Origin: Actinomycetota bacterium
GTDB lineage: Bacteria > Actinomycetota > Acidimicrobiia > Acidimicrobiales > Ilumatobacteraceae
Assembly: GCA_005788815.1 (NCBI GenBank)
Contig: SYAZ01000069.1
Coordinates: 1 to 44,039 of the forward strand
Length of the DNA stretch: 44,039 nt
Direction: 5' to 3'
Shown here: piece by piece, positions 29,818 to 39,685 of the stretch
How the letters are laid out: each line of letters starts with the position of its first letter
How positions within the stretch are numbered: the first letter of the stretch is position 1
Program-made: the position numbers and the translations under genes
The notes under the pieces: model-generated
What the model was told of the DNA's origin: nothing
Database searches by the model: none
Seen by the model: only the letters and a program-made list of their open reading frames with translations

Positions 29818-30345
29818 TTAGCGCACGGACATTAGGTAAAACTCGAGAGCCGACAACATCTCTGAGTATGCAGTTTCGCTACGTTCTGCGCGTGAGGTTT
29901 CCCACCATGTAATACGCATCGCCAAAACAGTGAGGAACGCGAGAATTGCTGCGTCGGTCAGAGCGATGTGGCCCAGTCCCCAAACGCTTGCAAATGACTT
30001 CCCGGGATTTGTTTGCCAGAACCACAAGAAGTTTGCGCTTGCTTGCTGATTCTGCAAGTACAACGCGAATGGTTCGATTACTTGCGACAACGCAAGCCAT
30101 GTAAGAAGAATCGGCAAGAACATTGCGCCAGCACGCACGACCATCAGTAGTCGTGGAGTTTCTGCGCGATACGGGAGAATCTGTTCAACGTTGACGTTGG
30201 CCCACGTTTCAATGTTTTCACCACGACGTAAATCTTCAACAAAGCGCTTTGCACTTTCGTTCAATGACGTCGTCTGTTTTGAGACGGTGAGCCACTTATC
30301 TATGGCATTCACTGCATCTTTATGTGCTGCTTCTGATAACGACAT
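29818..30345 (-). CDS. Two-helix membrane protein, candidate MotA/ExbB-like subunit
   Basis: The 175-aa protein starts MSLSEAAHKDAVNAIDKW, has a soluble helical N-terminus, and two hydrophobic spans: RAGAMFLPILLTWLALSQVIEPFALYL and ALTDAAILAFLTVLAMRITWW, then a charged helical tail. The paired helices with a polar Thr/Trp in the first and an AxxxA-rich second are like reduced MotA/TolQ channels. No family is certain. The frame runs back to 30435, through the end of the previous gene, so I use the ATG at 30345. It is 13 bases downstream of a MotB-like gene. Confidence 0.6.
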   Translation of the reverse strand: MSLSEAAHKDAVNAIDKWLTVSKQTTSLNESAKRFVEDLRRGENIETWANVNVEQILPYRAETPRLLMVVRAGAMFLPILLTWLALSQVIEPFALYLQNQQASANFLWFWQTNPGKSFASVWGLGHIALTDAAILAFLTVLAMRITWWETSRAERSETAYSEMLSALEFYLMSVR

Positions 30346-30358
30346 ATATTTAATCTTT

Positions 30359-30895
30359 CTAACGAGTGCAATCTTCGGATAATTGCGGACCACTAAACAA
30401 CAAGTAAACGACCATGAGGTGAGAGCCTGCACCACCTACTGAGGTTTCTCTGCCGTTAACGCGAACGGAACGTGCGCCAGCCGTACGCATTTCAATTTGA
30501 CTCAAGAGTGGCGAGCTTTTGCGCAATTGACCAAGAATTGCCTTTGCTCGGCCATCACCTGCGCCAGGACCTTCAGAGCCAGAGAACCCGCCCATCACAA
30601 TTGCAAAACCTGGTTTAGACGATTCAGGCGCCCAACCGCGATTTGCAATTTCTGCGCCTATCGCCGCTTCAATTTTTTTGCCGCCACTTGCCGGACTTAA
30701 ATTCGCCGGGACAGGAACACTGAATTCGGCGCAACTGAGTTGGAATACTTTCGGAGCTTCCGCACTCGATGATGGTGAAGACGTGGTGATCACTGCAGAA
30801 CCAAGACCAACAATCGTTAGTGCCAAGAAAAGGTCGGCATAGATCCAACCAATTCCTTCTTCAGCAGAACTAGCTCTGCGACGAAACCTAGCCAT
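30359..30895 (-). CDS. Single-span protein with MotB-like helix and OmpA-like domain
   Basis: This 178-aa protein has an N-terminal basic segment, one helix GWIYADLFLALTIVGLGSAVI with an aspartate at its start, as in the proton-carrying Asp of MotB/ZorB (SYADxxxxLxxFF). The exported part has a divergent OmpA-like core: FAIVMGGFSGSEG, DGRAKAILGQLRK and a late GAGSHLMVVYLLF. GAGG/GCTGTC spacing supports the ATG at 30895. It lies 63 bases behind a large surface-protein gene and 13 bases in front of the two-helix protein. The MotB analogy is inference from pattern, not a database match. Confidence 0.6.
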   Translation of the reverse strand: MARFRRRASSAEEGIGWIYADLFLALTIVGLGSAVITTSSPSSSAEAPKVFQLSCAEFSVPVPANLSPASGGKKIEAAIGAEIANRGWAPESSKPGFAIVMGGFSGSEGPGAGDGRAKAILGQLRKSSPLLSQIEMRTAGARSVRVNGRETSVGGAGSHLMVVYLLFSGPQLSEDCTR

Positions 30896-30958: not shown

Positions 30959-32812
30959 CTATTGTGAGATTATCTTTCGACGACGACGCAACTGATTTGG
31001 AAGAATCACACCGAATGCAACAGCTAAAGCAATTGGAATTGCGATGAGCACTCGCGTCAGTGTCGAACTTCTAGCAACTTCTCCTAGAACAACACCCACT
31101 GTAAAACTTGTTGGCTTTCCATCTTTTGACTTCGACACAATGACAATACGGTGTGAACCCTCTGGTGAATTTGGTGGAATTCTGAAATTTCCTGTTACTG
31201 AACCATCAGGCCTCACAACTGCCGAGCCCATCAAGACAGGTGTGGAAAAGAGCCATGCCTCGACGGTGCCACCAGGAGTGAAGCCAGACAGTTTTACGCG
31301 AACTACATCGCCCGCCTTCAGACGAACGTTTCCATCTGAGTCAAGAGGTAGAGCAGTTCCATTTTCATCTAAGCCACCAATAGTTGCTTTCAATGCTCCG
31401 GCGGATACCACCAACTGGTTGTTCTCGCGTGTCACCTTCGATTTTGTTGCAACTCCATCAACTTGCACAGCTGTCTCACCCGTAGCAACGGCGCTGACTT
31501 TCGGAGGCCCAAGTGTTGTTGTGGTCGCAGGTGCAACCGTTGTGGTTGTCACCACTGCAGAAGTTGAAAGACGTACCTCAGTTGTGGTTGTTATTGACTG
31601 TGCTCGGCGAGCAGCGACGGTTGTCGTGGGTGCAATCGTTGCCAGAGATGCCTGCCCCTGGGCCACTGTCGTGACAGGAGCTTGAATCTCAATCGACAGT
31701 GCAGGTGGAGCAGTTGTGGTCGTAGACGTAGTTGTGGTGGGAGCGGCCGTGACCGTAATGGTGACTGCACCAGATGAAGCTGCTGCGTACGTGGCATCAG
31801 CAGCCTTCGAAGCAGTCACAGTGCACGTACCAGCAGACGTCACCGACAACACCGCACCACTAAGTGAACAACCTGCAGAACCAGATGACGACACCACATA
31901 CGAGACAAGACCACTACCCGAACCACCCGAAGTGGAAAGAGTCAACGTAGAACCAGCAATTAGAGCGGTGTCAACAAGAGACAACGCACTCTGTGTGCGC
32001 TTTGATGCAGTAATAGTGACTGCACCAGATGAAGCTGCTGCGTACGTGGCATCAGCAGCCTTCGAAGCAGTCACAGTGCACGTACCAGCAGACGTCACCG
32101 ACAACACCGCACCACTTAACGAACAACCCGCAGAACCAACAGACGACACCACAAACGACACAAGACCACTACCCGAACCACCCGAAGTGGAAAGAGTCAA
32201 CGTAGAACCGAGCGTCAATGTTGTGTCGACAAGAGACAACGCAGCTTGTGGCAGCGCCGGCCCACCAGAGTTGTCACAAATAGCAATGTAAGCACCCGAA
32301 GATTCGCGATTCAAACATGTATTGGTTCCAGAACCACCGTAAAAAATGGACCTTTCGCGATTGTTATTAATGGTGTCATTACCCGAGCCGCCCCAATACC
32401 GCGAATCCCACATGTAATTCACCACATCATCGCCTGCACCCGCGAAGAAGAAATCGTGGGATCCAGTTGGATGCGAATCCAACATGTCAATCGTGTTATT
32501 CCCAGAGTCACCACAATAAATGTCAGGCGAATTCGCTCGAAGCGTGGGGTTCCAACTAGGACCAGTAGAAATCTGAATTGTCCAGGCGCCAGATGAAACT
32601 GCGGAAAGCAAGGCAGCCTCATTAGCAAATTCAGTTTCGGAAAGAATGAATTCTTTCGTGAAGCCAGGCTCATTAATTGATGACACACATTGGTCGAGCA
32701 GCGAAGGTGCCGCAGATACATTTTGCGTCGACACCTGAAAAGCAGACGCAAGCGTAAACATCGCGATTGCAATGACGAATTGCTTAAAGGACGGCATGCC
32801 TAACTTTACCAT
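30959..32812 (-). CDS. Secreted Ig/RTX-like surface protein with C-terminal anchor (A)
   Basis: The 617-aa protein has a signal peptide ending near VSAA. Residues about 100-185 carry RTX-like motifs (CGDSGNNTID, GAGDDVV, GGSGNDTI, GGSGTNTC), which in other proteins bind calcium. Two nearly identical 85-residue beta-sandwich repeats follow, then a Thr-rich linker. The shared C-terminal module of about 180 aa comes next (GNVRLKAGD, VEAWLFSTPVL, GSHRIVIV), then a helix and RRRRK. The start may be 32812, which abuts the palindrome, or the ATG at 32797. It is probably an outward-facing adhesive or scaffold protein. Confidence 0.82.
   Translation of the reverse strand: MVKLGMPSFKQFVIAIAMFTLASAFQVSTQNVSAAPSLLDQCVSSINEPGFTKEFILSETEFANEAALLSAVSSGAWTIQISTGPSWNPTLRANSPDIYCGDSGNNTIDMLDSHPTGSHDFFFAGAGDDVVNYMWDSRYWGGSGNDTINNNRERSIFYGGSGTNTCLNRESSGAYIAICDNSGGPALPQAALSLVDTTLTLGSTLTLSTSGGSGSGLVSFVVSSVGSAGCSLSGAVLSVTSAGTCTVTASKAADATYAAASSGAVTITASKRTQSALSLVDTALIAGSTLTLSTSGGSGSGLVSYVVSSSGSAGCSLSGAVLSVTSAGTCTVTASKAADATYAAASSGAVTITVTAAPTTTTSTTTTAPPALSIEIQAPVTTVAQGQASLATIAPTTTVAARRAQSITTTTEVRLSTSAVVTTTTVAPATTTTLGPPKVSAVATGETAVQVDGVATKSKVTRENNQLVVSAGALKATIGGLDENGTALPLDSDGNVRLKAGDVVRVKLSGFTPGGTVEAWLFSTPVLMGSAVVRPDGSVTGNFRIPPNSPEGSHRIVIVSKSKDGKPTSFTVGVVLGEVARSSTLTRVLIAIPIALAVAFGVILPNQLRRRRKIISQ
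31755..32245 (-). repeat. Tandem 255-base coding repeat within surface protein A
   Basis: Copy 1 at 31755-31990 and copy 2 at 32010-32245 are nearly identical over about 235 bases with a 255-base period. Each encodes one Ig-like unit with a Cys pair (GCSLSG and GTCTVTAS), a likely intradomain disulfide. The low divergence indicates recent tandem duplication or gene conversion. Confidence 0.9.
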
Positions 32813-32813
32813 G

Positions 32814-32830
32814 AACAGTCGAAAACTGTT
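32814..32830. promoter_or_regulatory. AACAGTC-N3-AACTGTT palindrome, site 1
   Basis: AACAGT and ACTGTT form perfect 6-base arms around CGAAA. The site ends 2 bases from the most upstream ATG of surface gene A. It is the same element as sites 2 and 3 next to the other two surface genes. Confidence 0.75.
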
Positions 32831-32873
32831 GCACTAGATTGGAATATCTCTAAGCACAACTGAACCGAAACCT

Positions 32874-34931
32874 CTAAGCAACAACGGCTTTACGACGACG
32901 GCGTAATTGGTTTGGAAGAATCACTCCGAAAAGAGCGGCAAAGGCGATCGGAATTGAGATGAGAACCCTCCTAATAGTTGACGTTCTTGTCATTTCTCCC
33001 ACTTCAACACCGACCGTCAACGTTGTTGCTTTTCCATATGTTGACTTTGCCACTACGACAATCCGATGCGAGCCCTTGGGCGAATTCTTTGGGATTATGA
33101 GATCAACCAACACCGAACCATCTGCACTCACGACGGCGGAACCCAACAAAACAGGAGTAGAAAATAGCCACGCTTCAACAGAGCTATTTGGTCTAAACCC
33201 GGCCAATTTGATGCGCACAACATCACCAGCACGCAGTCGCACATTGCCGTCTTTATCCAATGACCTTGCAGCCCCGCTTTTATCCAGTCCACCAATTGTT
33301 GCTTTCAATGCCCCGGCAGATACAACAAGTTGATTGTTCTCACGCGACACTTGCGATTTTGTTGCAACTCCATCAACTTGAACTGCTGTCTCACCCGTGG
33401 CAACAGCGCCGACCTTAGGTGGAGCGATAGTGGACGTGGTAACCGCCACTGTTGTTGTAGAGGCAATGGAATTTGAGGGGCGTACTGAATTTGGTGTTGT
33501 TGTCGTCGTCATTGTCAGTGCAATGCGGCCAACAACAGTTGTTGTCGGTGCGATTGTTGCCAGAGATGCCTGACCTTGTGCCACGGTCGTCACCGGAGCT
33601 TGAATCTCAATCACCACAACAGGCGCAACAGTTGTAGTGGTTGTAGTCGTCACGGCAGGCGACGCAGACGCTGACACTGTTTTGGATGCTGGCTTATAGT
33701 TGGCGCGTGTCACGGAAATGGTGACCGTTGCTGACTCACCAGAAGAAAGTCCAGTCACCAACACATCGTCGTCAGATCGCGACACCGAACCCTTAGACGT
33801 TGATAAAGCATACGTGTAACTATCTAGATAATTCGAAATGATAAACGTAAAGCCAGTTGCCGAAGCAACAGGAATAGTGGCTGTTGGCACCACAGAAACA
33901 TCCAGATCAACAACAACCGAAGTCGCTGCAGACAACACAGCACTCGAAGCACCCAAACTGTTTCTTGCTACTACCGAAAGTTTGATGTACTTACCAATGT
34001 CATCATCAGTGAGAAGATACGAGCTCAATGTTGCTGAATCGATATCAGCATATAGGCCGTCGACCCCAGCACGTTTCCACCGATACTCATACGACGACGG
34101 TGAACCATTCCACGAACCAGGAGGGTCAGAAGCAGTCAATCTCGAACCTGTTCGAGCGGTTCCAGACACTGTCGGGGCTGTCGAGTTTGATGGTACAGAA
34201 GTGTTAGCGAGTGCAGCCACTTCAGCGCCTGTCAGTGCCCTCTTGTAAATCGCAACATCATCAATGAGGCCATTAAAGAATTCACTGCTTGCCGTGCTAC
34301 CAATGTGGAAGTTTGCAGCAGTCGTGTTGAGCGCACCGGGTGTGTCAGATACCTTCAGCACTCCGTTGAAGTAGATCGATCGAGTCGTGCCGTCGTACGT
34401 AGTAACTACATGGGACCACGTGCTTGTTGAAAACGGACACGCACTGGACGAGCAAGAGGTGTCTTTGCCAAACCAGTAGTGTTTGATGCCGCCGTAGATG
34501 CCTTCCATGCGAAGAGCATTAAATCTTTTTAGGTCGCGGAGTCCCCAGGATATGAACCCACCCGAGTTGACCACCGCTGGCTTAAACCACAATGACTGCG
34601 AGTACGGGGAGTTGCCGATGGGGAGATACGCCGGACTCGACAGGTCGTACACCGACTGACTTTGGCCATTCACCGAAAGAGCACCACCGAACTTTCCGTT
34701 GACTGAATACGAGGCGCCATTGCCTTTCGTCAGTGTTGAGCCACCGACATCTGGAACATTGAAGTTTGTCGATGAATCGAATGACCAATACGCGGCAACA
34801 TCCGCAAGAGTGGAGCCTGCGGGAGGGGTAGCCGATACTTCCGAAACCACAGACACAAGCGACCCAAACGACAACGCAACTGCCACAGCAGTCAAATGCC
34901 TCAAGCAATTCGTAAACGGAATTTTCTCCAT
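32874..34931 (-). CDS. Secreted LamG-domain surface protein with C-terminal anchor (B)
   Basis: The 685-aa protein has a signal peptide (LTAVAVALSFGSLVSVVSEVSA). A concanavalin/LamG-like jellyroll spans about 45-235 (VAAYWSFDSST, YSQSLWFKPAV, TWSHVVTTYDGTTRSIYFNGVL, GLIDDVAIYKRALTGAEVAAL). Two fibronectin/Ig-like domains and a Thr-rich linker follow. The shared C-terminal module, helix and RRRRK tail close it. LamG domains usually bind glycans. I chose the ATG at 34931, which has GGGAG 7 bases upstream; a frame to 35048 has no signal peptide. It lies behind site 2. Confidence 0.85.
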   Translation of the reverse strand: MEKIPFTNCLRHLTAVAVALSFGSLVSVVSEVSATPPAGSTLADVAAYWSFDSSTNFNVPDVGGSTLTKGNGASYSVNGKFGGALSVNGQSQSVYDLSSPAYLPIGNSPYSQSLWFKPAVVNSGGFISWGLRDLKRFNALRMEGIYGGIKHYWFGKDTSCSSSACPFSTSTWSHVVTTYDGTTRSIYFNGVLKVSDTPGALNTTAANFHIGSTASSEFFNGLIDDVAIYKRALTGAEVAALANTSVPSNSTAPTVSGTARTGSRLTASDPPGSWNGSPSSYEYRWKRAGVDGLYADIDSATLSSYLLTDDDIGKYIKLSVVARNSLGASSAVLSAATSVVVDLDVSVVPTATIPVASATGFTFIISNYLDSYTYALSTSKGSVSRSDDDVLVTGLSSGESATVTISVTRANYKPASKTVSASASPAVTTTTTTTVAPVVVIEIQAPVTTVAQGQASLATIAPTTTVVGRIALTMTTTTTPNSVRPSNSIASTTTVAVTTSTIAPPKVGAVATGETAVQVDGVATKSQVSRENNQLVVSAGALKATIGGLDKSGAARSLDKDGNVRLRAGDVVRIKLAGFRPNSSVEAWLFSTPVLLGSAVVSADGSVLVDLIIPKNSPKGSHRIVVVAKSTYGKATTLTVGVEVGEMTRTSTIRRVLISIPIAFAALFGVILPNQLRRRRKAVVA

Positions 34932-35166
34932 GGGTTTCTCCCATCGAAAATTCCAATAGTCGCAGGATACTACGAGATATCGCGTAGCGATCCGTTCCTT
35001 CCTTCCGTTAGTACACGCGCAATCAGTAGTGGAAAAGCCCTCTGCCAAGAGGAGATCCCATATCCTCTCGTTCCTAACATCAACAGTCGGAAACTGTTAC
35101 CATCAGAATTGCAGATTCTCAATGAACTGCCGATGAACAGTCGTTCTATAGGAATAAGGTTTACGC
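34932..35166. promoter_or_regulatory. Divergent region between surface gene B and the TetR gene
   Basis: The 235 bases hold palindrome site 2 (35082-35098), a half-site GAACAGTC at 35135-35142, and two dyads that could form mRNA hairpins: 34965-34993 (GGAT..CTACG / CGTAG..ATCC) and AGAGGA/TCCTCT at 35048-35068. A possible TATAGG -10 lies at 35147-35152 before the TetR start. No gene is supported. Confidence 0.6.
35082..35098. promoter_or_regulatory. AACAGTC-N3-AACTGTT palindrome, site 2
   Basis: AACAGT and ACTGTT arms surround CGGAA. The site lies 69 bases before the TetR GTG and 151 bases before surface gene B, so it could control both. Confidence 0.75.
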
Positions 35167-35760
35167 GTGCCAGCGAAGAAGCCAGCAGCAAAAAAGCCCG
35201 CGGCCAAGCGGAGATCCCCCATTTCCCGGGCCGAGGGTGAGCAACGCCTGATTCAGGCCGCCAAGCAACTCATTCAGGAAAAGCCGTTCTCCGAAGTGGG
35301 AGTCCGCGATATCGCAGCCCTTGCGGATGTGAACCACGGTTTTGTCCACACATGGTTTGGTGGGAAAAACGAACTGCTACTTGCTGTTGTGAAGCAACAA
35401 TTCCTCACATTGGCAAAAGGGGTTCAAGATGCCGTGCCAGGAACGCCAGCCATCAATTTCTTTGACCCAGACGTGATATCAATTGTGCGCCTCGTCCTTT
35501 GGCTCGACCTTGAGGGAGTTGAAACCGGCTCACTGTTTGACAACATGCCAATTCTGGACGCCCTCACCACTCGCTATATAGAAGTGGAACACATCGATCC
35601 ATCTATTGCCCGCGAAGCCGCCATCCAAGCCATTTCTATTGGCCTCGGCGCTGGCACCTTTGCCCCCATCTTGGGAATGAACGACATGAAAGACATTGCC
35701 CCTGTGATGCAGTTGTGGCGTCGTGTCGTCGGGTTGTTGGCCAAGTATCCCGAGGCGTAG
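35167..35760 (+). CDS. TetR-family regulator with Lys/Ala-rich N-terminal tail
   Basis: The 197-aa protein begins with a basic tail of alternating Lys, Ala and Pro (PAKKPAAKKPAAKRR). A TetR head follows: GEQRLIQAAKQLIQE and the helix-turn-helix SEVGVRDIAALADVNHGFVHTWFGGKNELLLAVV. A helical ligand domain closes it. The GTG at 35167 has AAGG 7 bases upstream. It lies among three surface-protein genes that carry a common palindrome and is a natural candidate to bind it. The tail resembles those of histone-H1-like bacterial proteins and may add non-specific DNA affinity. Confidence 0.85.
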   Translation: MPAKKPAAKKPAAKRRSPISRAEGEQRLIQAAKQLIQEKPFSEVGVRDIAALADVNHGFVHTWFGGKNELLLAVVKQQFLTLAKGVQDAVPGTPAINFFDPDVISIVRLVLWLDLEGVETGSLFDNMPILDALTTRYIEVEHIDPSIAREAAIQAISIGLGAGTFAPILGMNDMKDIAPVMQLWRRVVGLLAKYPEA

Positions 35761-35776
35761 CCAATAGGCATTCGAA

Positions 35777-38383
35777 CTACTGGATTGTTTGGCGCCTCCT
35801 GCGGCGCGTCGCTGCAGGAATGAAGATTCCTGCGAAGCCAGCGAGAGCGAGGGGTATGGCAATAAGTAAGCGAGACAGTAGTGACGTTGTATCGATTGCC
35901 CCCACTGCAATTCCGAGACCAATAATGACAGCCTGACCTTGATCATTTTGACCGTCGAGAACAATTCGATGGTCACCAGATTCAAGTGCTCTCGGAAGAT
36001 CAAATGCCCCCGAGATTGCACCCGATGCAGACGCTTCAACAGTTCCGAGTCGCATAGGAGTGGAATACATCCACACCTCAACATCTTCACCAGCGTTGTA
36101 TCCCTTTGCTTCAATAACAATCTTGTCGTCTGGGTTTAGCCGAAGGTTTCCGTCTTCATCAAGCGACACCACTTCTCCATCTGGTGTGAGACCTGAGAAG
36201 ATGGCAGACACACCAGCGGCGACGGCGGTCACTCTGTTGCTACTGCGACTCAACGAAACGGAAACAATCTCGCCGTCAACGAGTGCACCTGCTTCACCAG
36301 TTGTCACTTTTGGTACAGAAGGTGCTGGAAATGTGGTGCTTGTCGTGGATGTCGTGGAGACGGATGGTTGCATCGGCTGAACAGTCGTGGCCGTGCCACT
36401 CTTATTTTGAGAATCATCAGAGTTTCCACCGGTTGAACCACTTTCGTTTGATGTGACCATCGTGGTGCTTGACGACAATGGAGCAGTTGTGGCTGAGTTG
36501 GAGGGAATTGTCGAAGTTGACCCACCAGCCGCAATCACAAAAACAACGTCTGCGGTTCCCTGCAAGTAAGTGCTGGTTGCTGCTGCTGTTGCACGAACGG
36601 TGCAACTACCTGCAGTCGAAAATGTGAGGACACCCGTTGTTGATGCAACTGAACACCCCGTTGAACCAGCGCTCACCACCGAGTAAGACAACGTGCCGTT
36701 ACCGTTCGTGCTCGCCAACGAACTTGGAGTTCGTGGAGAGTCGCTCACCAACAACGAAGTCGTGGGCGACCATGTCACTGTTTGGGGAGACTGAACAATC
36801 GGAGACGAGTACTTCACTAGGAAAGGGAAACTCGACGCACCACTCGCGACTTTGTCACCACTTGAGTTAGCACCACCAATACCGTTGCCGGCGAAGTCGA
36901 TTGAACCTGCAAAAAGGTCACCAATATGAATCGTTGAACCGTCAGGTGAAACATCTATTCCACCGAGGAATCCTCCGTCAGCACTTGTTCCGCCTCCGCG
37001 CAGTGCCCATTCGAACGATCCAGACGTCGCGTACTTCGCCGTGAACACATCGGTTCCGCCTGCGGAAACGAGGTCACCATCACCGCCTGCACCATCACCA
37101 GCAAAATCGACTGTGCCGTTGAACGCCCCCGTGATGTAATAGTTGCCAGCAGAATCAACATCTCCATCAACTGGGTTCTCATCGCCCGTTGAGCCATAAC
37201 GTTTTGACCACACAAGAGCCCCGGAACTTGAGTATTTCGCCACCATCGCGTCGTTTCCTCCCGCAGAGACCAGGTCATCTGCTGCGTTGGCACCACCAAT
37301 TCCATCTCCAGCACTATCCATCGTCAGTTTGAAATATGCCGTCACCATCACGCTGTTGCTCGAGCCAATACTGATGTCAGCGCCCCAGTCATAGCCCGTT
37401 GAACCGACCGACTTCGTCCACGTGAGTGCACCTGAAGGGGTGTACTTAGCAATGTACGCGTCGTAGCTACCCCTGCCGGCAACGTCACCAGCTCCACCGA
37501 TTCCATCTCCACCAAAGTCGGTCACGCCGGAAGCTGAGTTACCAATCACAAGAACATTGTTCGATGAATCTGTCGTGATTTCTTGTGGCCATTCGGTGCT
37601 GGTTCCCCCAATTCGATTTGCCCACTGATAGACGCCCGCAGAGTTGTACTTCACAACTGCGGCATCTGCTGTGCCGCCCATACTCACAAGATCGCCCACT
37701 CCACCAATTCCGTCTTGTCCAAAGTCGGCAGTACCTGTAAACGGCACATGAAGATAGACGTTCTGTAAAGAGTCAGTGGACACTGCGCCTTGCCATCCAG
37801 AATCATTTCCCGTTCCACCTGCTCTCACCGCCCACACAAAGTTGCCAGCAGCTGAGTATTTGGCCGTAAACAAATCATTGGCGCCAAGACTCACGAGGTC
37901 GCCTGAACCTCCAATTCCGTCACCGGCGAAATCCACAGTTCCAGAAAATGACCCAGCAACAACAACGTTGTCGTTTGCGTCAACGGTGACTCCCGTCGTC
38001 AATTCAGAACCTGAGCTACTGAAGTGCTTCACCCACTGCAGAACGCCGTTCGAGTTGTACTGGGCAAGGTACGCGTCTTGAGAAGTGGTGACCACATCAC
38101 CGAAAGAGTTTGCACCACCAATTCCGTTACCAGCGAAATCCAAAGTTCCGCCAAGCCATCCCGTGATGTACGAGTTGCCATTGGAGTCAACAGCAACAGC
38201 GTTCACAGGGGCATTCGAAGAACCTGTACCGTCTCCACCAGCAATCCACGAAAAGGTTGGAGCGGTTGATGCTGCGCTCACGGGTGAATGGGTGGCTGTC
38301 ATAGCGATGAAGGGGGCGGTCACAACCGCCACTGTCAGGATTTTTGACCAGAAATTGGCCCGAATTGTCGTCACATTTTTCAT
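35777..38383 (-). CDS. Secreted SBBP-like repeat surface protein with C-terminal anchor (C)
   Basis: The 868-aa protein has a signal peptide (ILTVAVVTAPFIAMTATHSPVSA). Seven beta-propeller-like repeats follow over about 45-525, each with a DFAGDGIGG-type turn and an AKYSSSGALVW-type strand; these match SBBP beta-propeller repeats. One Ig-like domain, a Ser/Thr-rich linker and the shared C-terminal module, helix and RRRRR tail complete it. The C-terminal module is more divergent than in A and B but keeps VEVWMYSTP, GNLRLNPDD and GDHRIVLDG. Palindrome site 3 lies 44 bases upstream. Confidence 0.87.
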   Translation of the reverse strand: MKNVTTIRANFWSKILTVAVVTAPFIAMTATHSPVSAASTAPTFSWIAGGDGTGSSNAPVNAVAVDSNGNSYITGWLGGTLDFAGNGIGGANSFGDVVTTSQDAYLAQYNSNGVLQWVKHFSSSGSELTTGVTVDANDNVVVAGSFSGTVDFAGDGIGGSGDLVSLGANDLFTAKYSAAGNFVWAVRAGGTGNDSGWQGAVSTDSLQNVYLHVPFTGTADFGQDGIGGVGDLVSMGGTADAAVVKYNSAGVYQWANRIGGTSTEWPQEITTDSSNNVLVIGNSASGVTDFGGDGIGGAGDVAGRGSYDAYIAKYTPSGALTWTKSVGSTGYDWGADISIGSSNSVMVTAYFKLTMDSAGDGIGGANAADDLVSAGGNDAMVAKYSSSGALVWSKRYGSTGDENPVDGDVDSAGNYYITGAFNGTVDFAGDGAGGDGDLVSAGGTDVFTAKYATSGSFEWALRGGGTSADGGFLGGIDVSPDGSTIHIGDLFAGSIDFAGNGIGGANSSGDKVASGASSFPFLVKYSSPIVQSPQTVTWSPTTSLLVSDSPRTPSSLASTNGNGTLSYSVVSAGSTGCSVASTTGVLTFSTAGSCTVRATAAATSTYLQGTADVVFVIAAGGSTSTIPSNSATTAPLSSSTTMVTSNESGSTGGNSDDSQNKSGTATTVQPMQPSVSTTSTTSTTFPAPSVPKVTTGEAGALVDGEIVSVSLSRSSNRVTAVAAGVSAIFSGLTPDGEVVSLDEDGNLRLNPDDKIVIEAKGYNAGEDVEVWMYSTPMRLGTVEASASGAISGAFDLPRALESGDHRIVLDGQNDQGQAVIIGLGIAVGAIDTTSLLSRLLIAIPLALAGFAGIFIPAATRRRRRQTIQ

Positions 38384-38405
38384 GTTGCGCGTAACTTTCG
38401 TGAAA

Positions 38406-38443
38406 GGAATAGAGCTACCTTAACCCAACAGTCAATAACTGTC
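38406..38443 (-). promoter_or_regulatory. Promoter of surface gene C with palindrome site 3 in the -35
   Basis: AACAGT, CAATA, ACTGTC (38427-38443) is the third copy of the palindrome, with one mismatch in an arm. Read on the minus strand, -35 TTGACT (38430-38435) lies inside it, followed by an 18-base spacer and -10 TATTCC (38406-38411). Binding here should block transcription or, if it recruits polymerase, drive it. Confidence 0.6.
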
Positions 38444-38548
38444 CGAATCTTGGTACAGCACGAGGTAGCACCAAGGTTGTTGAGCAAGTACACGCCCGCA
38501 TAGCCTGACTAGTGCTGGGCTCCCCGTTCAGCGCATACACAAAACACC

Positions 38549-38670
38549 CCTTGCAGGGTTTGGGTGAAAGTCCCGACCGGCGGTATAGCCCGCGAACCCT
38601 CGTACTTCGGTGCGAGGGCCGACTCAGTGAGATTCTGAGGCCGACGGTAACAGTCCGGATGGGAGCAAGG
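38549..38670 (+). ncRNA. FMN riboswitch (RFN element)
   Basis: The conserved RFN core is complete: GGGTGAAAGTCCCGACCGGCGGT, AGCCCGCGA, a hairpin with ACCCTCG/CGAGGG, GTGAGATTC and GCCGACGGTAACAGTCCGG-ATGGGAG. P1 pairs CCTTGC (38549-38554) with GCAAGG (38665-38670). That 3' strand contains AAGG of the ribD ribosome-binding site, 7 bases before the ATG, so FMN binding should mask it directly. Translational control of the riboflavin operon is therefore likely. Confidence 0.95.
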
Positions 38671-38677
38671 ACACAAC

Positions 38678-39685
38678 ATGACTAACCACGAGGCGCTCAT
38701 GCGCCGTGCCATGCATATGGCTGAGACCGCGCGCATACATGCGCGACCTAATCCATGGGTGGGTGCTGTCGTTGTGTGTGTTGATGGAACTGTGTACGAA
38801 GGTGCCACGCAACCACCAGGTGGCCCGCACGCTGAAATTGTTGCGTTGAATTCTGCTCGTGAAGCTGGCGCTGATGTTCGTGGTGCCACCTTGTATTCCA
38901 CACTTGAACCGTGTTCGCATACTGGTCGCACTGGCCCGTGCACTGAAGCAATTATCTCCGCAGGAATTACATGTGTTGTTTCTGCAATTTCTGATCCTGA
39001 TGAACACGTTGCCGGCAGTGGATTTGATGCATTACGCGCAGCAGGCGTTGAAGTCATCACAGATGTGTTGGCCGACGACGTTTCTGAACAACTTGCGCCG
39101 TACTTACATCATCGTCGCACGGGTCGTGCGTTTGTGATGCTGAAGATGGCAACCACTCTTGATGCGCGCACTGCAATACCGAACGGACCGCGTTGGATTA
39201 CAGGCGAAGAGGCACGAGTGCGCGTGCATCAGTTGCGCGCAGAGAGCGACGCCATCGTTGTTGGCTCTGGAACTATTCCAGCAGATGACCCAGAACTCAC
39301 CGTTCGCCATGTTGAAGGAAAGTCTCCTCGCCGCATTGTGTTGTCGCGCAGTGGCTCAGTACATGCAACAGCAAAAGTGCAACCGTGTGAAGTGTGGAGT
39401 GGTTCACTCGACGCCCTTCTTGATTCGCTTGGCAGCGAAGGCGTGATCCAGTTAATGGTGGAAGGTGGGGCAACAATTGCGACTGCATTCCACGAACAAC
39501 ACCTCATCAATCGTTATGTCTTCCACATTGCTCCAATAGTGAGTGGAAGCGACAACGCACCCGGAGTATTTGCCGGAGACGAACCACTGCCCCTCACCGA
39601 TTGCCATCTGGTATCGGCCACTGCGCTTGGCGCAGATCTAGAGATCGTTATGAAACCCATACGAAAGAAAGTAGAAGCATCATGA
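38678..39685 (+). CDS. ribD: Bifunctional riboflavin deaminase/reductase
   Basis: This 335-aa enzyme carries out the second and third steps of riboflavin synthesis. The N-terminal deaminase has H51-A-E53 and C79/C88 (PCSHTGRTGPC) for zinc. The C-terminal reductase has MLKMATTLDARTA, GSGTIPADDPELTVR, VEGGATIATAF and a closing region typical of RibD. It starts directly behind the riboswitch. Its stop overlaps ribBA by 4 bases. Confidence 0.95.
   Translation: MTNHEALMRRAMHMAETARIHARPNPWVGAVVVCVDGTVYEGATQPPGGPHAEIVALNSAREAGADVRGATLYSTLEPCSHTGRTGPCTEAIISAGITCVVSAISDPDEHVAGSGFDALRAAGVEVITDVLADDVSEQLAPYLHHRRTGRAFVMLKMATTLDARTAIPNGPRWITGEEARVRVHQLRAESDAIVVGSGTIPADDPELTVRHVEGKSPRRIVLSRSGSVHATAKVQPCEVWSGSLDALLDSLGSEGVIQLMVEGGATIATAFHEQHLINRYVFHIAPIVSGSDNAPGVFAGDEPLPLTDCHLVSATALGADLEIVMKPIRKKVEAS

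Follow-up and report, generated by a model that had tools for sequence, protein, structure and literature searches.

A palindrome shared by modular surface-protein genes and a divergent TetR-family gene suggests a surface-protein regulon in uncultured Ilumatobacteraceae

Three genes for modular surface proteins in a member of the Ilumatobacteraceae (assembly GCA_005788815.1) are each preceded by the same short palindrome, one copy of which also lies in front of a gene for a TetR-family regulator. Which protein recognises the palindrome, and which genes does it govern? The stretch of DNA analysed (contig SYAZ01000069.1, positions 1 to 44,039; hereafter the window) comes from a genome of 1.53 Mb that is 68% complete (the home genome). 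G-labels denote genomes (32 of the genus, G000 being the home genome), L-labels loci and C-numbers contigs. The features of the window are collected in Table 1.

Table 1. Features of the window, in order of position; promoter elements, gene functions and the operator role of the palindromes are predictions
Feature	Coordinates	Strand	Remarks
Larger membrane protein, probable TM segments	29818-30435	-	Probably starts near 30345; paired with the 30359-30895 product
Smaller membrane protein, one N-terminal TM, possible OmpA/MotB-like domain	30359-30895	-	Neighbourhood conserved in relatives
Surface gene 1	30959-32812	-	Signal peptide (by eye), repeats, Thr-rich linker, module, TM, RRRR tail
Probable -10 box of surface gene 1, TAAAGT	32803-32808	-	5 bases after operator 1; predicted
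Operator 1 (proposed), AACAGTCGAAAACTGTT	32814-32830	.	Upstream of surface gene 1; 21.1 bits with the tetR-derived matrix
Surface gene 2	32874-34931	-	Signal peptide (by eye), LamG (Pfam Laminin_G_3, 1.3e-21), module, TM, RRRR tail
-10-like box of surface gene 2, TAGGAA	35071-35076	-	5 bases after operator 2; predicted
Operator 2 (proposed), AACAGTCGGAAACTGTT	35082-35098	.	Divergent intergenic region of tetR and surface gene 2
Half-site AACAGTC	35136-35142	+	Upstream of the tetR -10-like box; read from the sequence
Probable -10 box of tetR, TAAGGT	35155-35160	+	6 bases before GTG, leaderless; predicted from sequence
TetR-family regulator, 197 aa, proposed operator binder	35167-35760	+	Pfam TetR_N; orthologs; structure model
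Surface gene 3	35777-38383	-	Signal peptide (by eye), SBBP beta-propeller repeats, module, TM, RRRR tail
Probable -10 box of surface gene 3, TAAGGT	38417-38422	-	4 bases after operator 3; predicted
Operator 3 (proposed), AACAGTCAATAACTGTC	38427-38443	.	Upstream of surface gene 3

An earlier note on this DNA had described three copies of the palindrome and a half-site, and all four were confirmed, together with their distances from the neighbouring genes: a single base separates site 1 from the ORF start at 32812, 44 bases lie between site 3 and the start at 38383, and site 2 stands 151 bases from the ATG at 34931 and 69 from the tetR GTG at 35167. The distance from site 2 to surface gene 2 is 33 bases if the upstream TTG at 35048 is the start. 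The window was also said to hold no further copy, which proved correct: the exact pattern, AACAGTCNNNAACTGTY, is present three times in the home genome, always in the window, and outside it there are zero copies at 0 or 1 mismatch (chance alone would give ∼6e-4 exact copies in the window and ∼0.02 in the genome). Copies with two mismatches are not enriched, either in the window (7 against a shuffle mean of 4.7) or in the genome (7+4 against 8+9 in the control). The element is indeed a palindrome, but the 6-5-6 layout first given to its arms and spacing gives way to the 7-3-7 layout seen in relatives, AACAGTC-N3-GACTGTT; in the window copies the right arm opens with A in place of G. Their 60-bp flanks share 15–27% identity, and the sites are therefore not remnants of a recent promoter duplication. 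In G014 operator 2 is identical in both sequence and position; the half-site is likewise found (by eye) upstream of tetR in G014, G009, G006 and G017.

The description of the three surface proteins as paralogous holds for a C-terminal module of ∼190 amino acids, in which the other two proteins are 72% and 35% identical to the product of gene 1, but not for the ectodomains, which differ. No Pfam or NCBIfam model exceeded its cut-off for the module, nor did any Pfam model for the ectodomain of gene 1.

TetR_N (PF00440) is recognised in the product of the gene at 35167 (E=5.4e-10; score 39.3 bits, cut-off 24). Its predicted structure is all-helical, with nine helices and a mean pLDDT of 85.8, and the best 50 Foldseek matches listed all look TetR-type with a probability of 1.00, at whole-chain TM-scores of only up to ∼0.6. 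Among the NCBIfam models listed, none of the subfamilies with an assigned ligand (BetI, FasR, KstR, AcrR and others) scored above its cut-off: each of the 20 models fell below its own and matched just the N-terminal part of the protein, the best subfamily score being 34 bits, for BetI, whose cut-off is 118. Within the genus, 22 of the 32 genomes yielded an ortholog, in two cases a fragment; the count combines 21 matches at E<1e-38 (that in G004 being a fragment) with a contig-end fragment in G006 of 78% identity. Many of the tetR orthologs adjoin ribD, and many are divergent to a gene with the C-terminal module (module gene) or to the membrane-protein pair described below. The relatives from a named collection are metagenome-assembled genomes, assigned where a family is given to the Ilumatobacteraceae or Acidimicrobiaceae; the isolate names LacPavin, Baikal and Erken suggest that relatives come from lakes.

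Of the 22 tetR orthologs in the genus, counting that of the window, 18 are preceded by a 17-bp palindrome of the form AACAGTC-N3-GACTGTT that scores at least 14 bits. Fifteen of these 18 loci supplied the 19 sites on which the scoring matrix was trained, G014 and G012 nearly duplicate two of these training loci, and G006 alone is independent of the training. A strong site directly upstream is lacking in G020 (best score 6.3), the G004 fragment (10.2), G016 (0.5) and G017 (8.2); in G017 tetR comes after an operator-bearing module gene. The named collection provides five further orthologs outside the training set, four with upstream DNA (the fifth, L168, has none), and the palindrome is present in three of these four (L161, L162 and L165). 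At six loci paired copies stand 21 bp apart. The palindrome is retained at TetR orthologs down to ∼40% identity.

A paralogous clade of TetR proteins differs in this respect. In L175 (upstream of 6001), the fourth of the collection orthologs with upstream DNA, and at the paralog on G027:C61 (L060, upstream of 10185) the 7-3-7 near-palindrome AACACAC-N3-GTGTGTC is found instead, at a similar position, and the recognition helix of the G027:C61 protein is altered from VNHGFVHTWFG to VNQGFIHSWFG. That palindrome and recognition helix have both changed is consistent with TetR being the binder, and the clade possibly represents a natural shift in specificity.

Sites also stand far from tetR, at module genes on other contigs. 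With a matrix built from the 19 tetR-upstream sites, a threshold of 14 bits and a search window of -300 to +120 around the first start, 14 of 46 remote module genes carry a site, where 200 matrices with permuted arms gave a mean of 0.24 and a maximum of 8. Of 304 other ORFs, taken from the window and from loci L044-L068, 8 carry a site (Fisher test against module genes, p=1e-8); two of the eight use a site next to ribD that also belongs to a module gene, and four are divergent to tetR, the latter being, or overlapping, the gene for the smaller membrane protein. The 46 genes remain from 47 specified, G020:C327 having been dropped for want of a frame. Nine regions with a contig end at or near the start, or with an unclear frame, were left unscored (L095, L100, L113, L134, L135, L138, L139, L144 and L146). 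Module matches cut by a contig start, the 6930-aa frame of G027:C1 and matches weaker than ∼1e-15 were left out, as were those at loci already counted (the home genome, the tetR loci and G011:C99).

As scored, the other 32 of the 46 remote module genes have no site of at least 14 bits, and it is only a part of the module family that carries the element. Two of the misses, G011:C246 and G001:C9, arise through start assignment alone: in both, as in the related G008:C86, a site lies 3–11 bp upstream of an ATG at the start of a signal peptide and LamG-like region (by eye). Sites are present at 14 of 41 remote module genes in genomes where TetR was found and at none of five where it was not, a difference that is not significant (p=0.30). 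G003 repeats the layout of the window: a second module gene stands between tetR and ribD, and the counterpart of operator 3 lies 39 bp upstream of it.

When, as the earlier note had proposed, the home genome was scanned and the sites compared with module genes, the best sites proved to lie upstream of module genes, and the totals were those of background. Six module genes were found (not counting a seventh, partial match at 6e-4), and all belong to five units behind sites with at most two mismatches. Such sites number eight in the genome, five of them at module genes, and three of the five are the original window sites. Of the others, that of the C70 gene stands 26 bp upstream (12.2 bits) and that of the first C105 gene 18 bp upstream (17.3 bits); the second C105 gene begins 5 bases after the first. 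At up to three mismatches the home genome holds 45 sites against 79 for the reversed control; distinct one-mismatch sites in the 32 genomes number 19, as do those of the reversed control; and the exact window pattern has four matches in 60 relatives against three for the control. With total numbers at the level of controls the enrichment is positional, and it is on position that the case for a regulon rests. Thirteen of the 19 one-mismatch sites belong to tetR or to module or LamG-like surface genes, three to an SRPBCC-like gene and one to whiB; the remaining two lie elsewhere, one with no clear target (G019:C390) and one 24 bp upstream of a long lipoprotein-like ORF (G011:C191).

Many of the sites hold a regular position relative to predicted promoters. 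Among 37 sites hand-picked from site-bearing loci, which include the close relatives G015/G012 and G001/G008, a TANNNT sequence starts 4–6 bases past the operator on the gene side in 16 and on the mirror side in three (Fisher test, p=0.001; promoters predicted). The operator would thus fill the space between the -35 and -10 boxes, where repressors that block transcription commonly sit, and a -10-like box at a fixed distance on the gene side suggests repression. For site 3 the -35 box had been placed within the palindrome; since operator 3 ends 4 bases before TAAGGT, it would go beyond containing that box and occupy the whole -35/-10 spacer. The box assigned to surface gene 2, TAGGAA, does not fit TANNNT, and its counterpart in G014 is TAGTGT. 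For gene 1 the more likely start is the ATG at 32797 (MPSFKQ...) rather than 32812; it sits 5 bases past TAAAGT (32808-32803), and to judge from this spacing the start at 32797 would be leaderless. Start codons 5–7 bases after TANNNT are found at window gene 1 (32797), C105, G020:C265 and in G007.

Operator 3 also lies just upstream of an FMN riboswitch (RF00050, 97.9 bits; 38545-38674) that precedes ribD at 38678; the nearest -10-like box faces surface gene 3.

Just 63 bp downstream of surface gene 1 begins the gene for the smaller of two strongly conserved membrane proteins. In many tetR loci relatives of the pair lie either downstream of a module gene or divergent to tetR. The larger protein was found in 23 of the 32 genus members; a sample of 198 genomes drawn from the class yielded it in the home genome only. 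It was found in 20 of 22 genomes with TetR and in 3 of 10 without (Fisher test, p=0.001), and strong module genes (E<1e-30, a limit chosen afterwards) occur in 20 of 23 genomes with it and 3 of 9 without (p=0.006), both p-values being generous because the genomes are incomplete and related. The three genomes in which the pair was found and TetR was not (G030, G019 and G026) have contigs that end before the place where tetR would be expected. No known family was recognised for the pair, for which PADLOC returned one weak TPR match, and the smaller protein has no sequence match in Pfam or the PDB. A fold model of the latter, of low confidence (pLDDT 69), has OmpA domains among its best matches (Z 5–6.2), tied with unrelated folds; it is possible from this model that the protein carries an OmpA/MotB-like domain. 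The pair probably belongs to the regulon, by way of co-transcription with gene 1.

Two further kinds of gene carry the site. In the home genome a 17.0-bit site lies 130 bp upstream of whiB (G000:C15:4658; L223:4658-4674), and sites of at least 14 bits are present at 7 of 29 whiB loci, one of which has just 99 bp of upstream DNA: those of G000, G014, G004, G013 and G026, and, at another distance, G007 and G030. Some of the other whiB loci keep mostly the right half, GACTGTT, and whiB is a possible member of the regulon. An SRPBCC-like gene (named by eye) has a near-perfect palindrome 37 bp upstream in G030, G010 and G007 (L181, L182 and L183) and no site in the six other genomes that carry it; the home genome has no match to this gene at E<=1e-15. 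Sites of these two kinds occur also in G013 and G030, where a TetR ortholog was not found.

A further operator copy is seen in L091 (G008:C86), where positions 583-599 lie between the gene for the LamG-like surface protein and a TetR-like gene (687-1346, by eye) distinct from tetR.

Together these analyses implicate the TetR protein of 35167-35760 as the regulator, and the earlier proposal of a single regulator for a surface regulon, most likely this TetR, gains support from the comparison across relatives. We think it very likely, judging from sequence and its conservation, that TetR binds the palindrome and represses its own gene, the modular surface-protein regulon and the membrane pair until released by a ligand. 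A TetR dimer would bind the 17-bp AACAGTC-N3-GACTGTT just upstream of the -10 boxes of its targets and so block transcription until a ligand frees it. Through site 2 and the half-site it would repress its own gene; it would likewise repress the exported surface proteins that share the anchor-like C-terminal module, and, through co-transcription with one surface gene, the genus-specific membrane pair.

That TetR is the best candidate follows from the recurrence of the palindrome upstream of its orthologs, both in the genus (18/22) and outside the training set (3/4). A different regulator of wider action, either another TetR or a global one, might nevertheless bind the palindrome, with the TetR of the window as a mere target. 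The sites at whiB (7/29 loci) and the SRPBCC-like gene (3/9), including those in G013 and G030, would fit such a regulator, as would the G008:C86 site with its different TetR-like neighbour. We consider this unlikely: the most regular occurrences adjoin orthologs of the window TetR, the paralogous clade combines an altered palindrome with an altered recognition helix, and, as to the genomes seemingly devoid of TetR, G030 is 63% complete and the membrane-pair contigs of G030, G019 and G026 stop short of the tetR position.

The direction of control deserves separate consideration. TetR could be an activator of the surface genes, or an activator and repressor both, given that the sites are found upstream of the -10-like box and that TetR-type activators exist, FasR being termed one in PMC7382501. 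However, the operator ends 4–6 bases before the -10-like box and would thus lie in the spacer, where a bound dimer should obstruct RNA polymerase, and activation accordingly strikes us as improbable. Least credible, and already disfavoured, is the view that the sites are promoter sequence inherited by duplicated genes, or chance occurrences, with no regulatory role. The genes do share a module and total motif counts do match controls, but the dissimilar flanks and ectodomains speak against this view, as does the palindrome's persistence at TetR orthologs to ∼40% identity and its recurrence at unlinked genes.

The regulatory mechanism is an ordinary one. A locally acting, autoregulated TetR repressor with a divergent target and an autoregulatory palindrome is a well-known arrangement, and the window TetR has in common with the classic examples a TetR_N domain, an all-helical model and a palindrome in the divergent intergenic region and at other promoters. 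It differs in its proposed targets, modular surface proteins in place of the efflux pump or catabolic enzymes controlled elsewhere, and it matches described subfamilies in the DNA-binding part only. By fold, the mycobacterial KstR, EthR2, Rv0078 and FasR and the Dietzia AlkX are among the nearest solved structures, at ∼16–24% identity and TM-scores of ∼0.3–0.6; profile matches to them fall mostly in the helix-turn-helix part, and their target genes are other ones. A lipid or sterol ligand is not indicated for the window TetR.

Rob and IcaR, repressors of the staphylococcal ica locus, are reportedly TetR-type, and that locus would resemble the present one in having a TetR-type repressor of a surface adhesin. 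Repression of the adhesin at ica is described in PMC5285506. The ica target is a polysaccharide adhesin operon, whereas the window TetR would target a protein family with module tails whose genes are spread over several contigs.

C-terminal sorting tails, of the LPXTG and CTERM types, consist of a domain, a TM helix and a basic cluster. Like proteins with such tails, the three window proteins have a signal peptide (by eye), a variable ectodomain, a Thr-rich linker, the C-terminal module, a TM segment and RRRR; they differ from LPXTG proteins in that no LPXTG was seen by eye in the three tails. The smaller membrane protein is predicted, in the pLDDT 69 model, to combine a single N-terminal helix with a domain of mixed beta/alpha structure, and may in this resemble OmpA/MotB peptidoglycan-binding proteins; Z is at most 6.2, unrelated folds are tied, and no sequence match was found.

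The novelty seems to lie in the membership, a regulon of surface proteins joined by a genus-specific membrane pair. Among the open-access papers listed, no title points to a description of the operator or regulon. The analysis gives an uncultured lake lineage a concrete regulon for which an operator, a regulator and a list of targets are proposed, and the tie between a modular surface-protein family and an unannotated genus-specific membrane pair offers a lead on how the outer surface is built and switched. More tentatively, and we regard it as rather doubtful, TetR might run a genus-specific surface-display system in which a changing set of module-tailed proteins is exported, anchored or energised by the dedicated membrane pair. 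The ectodomains of the module-tailed repertoire are of LamG, propeller, Gly-rich and repeat types.
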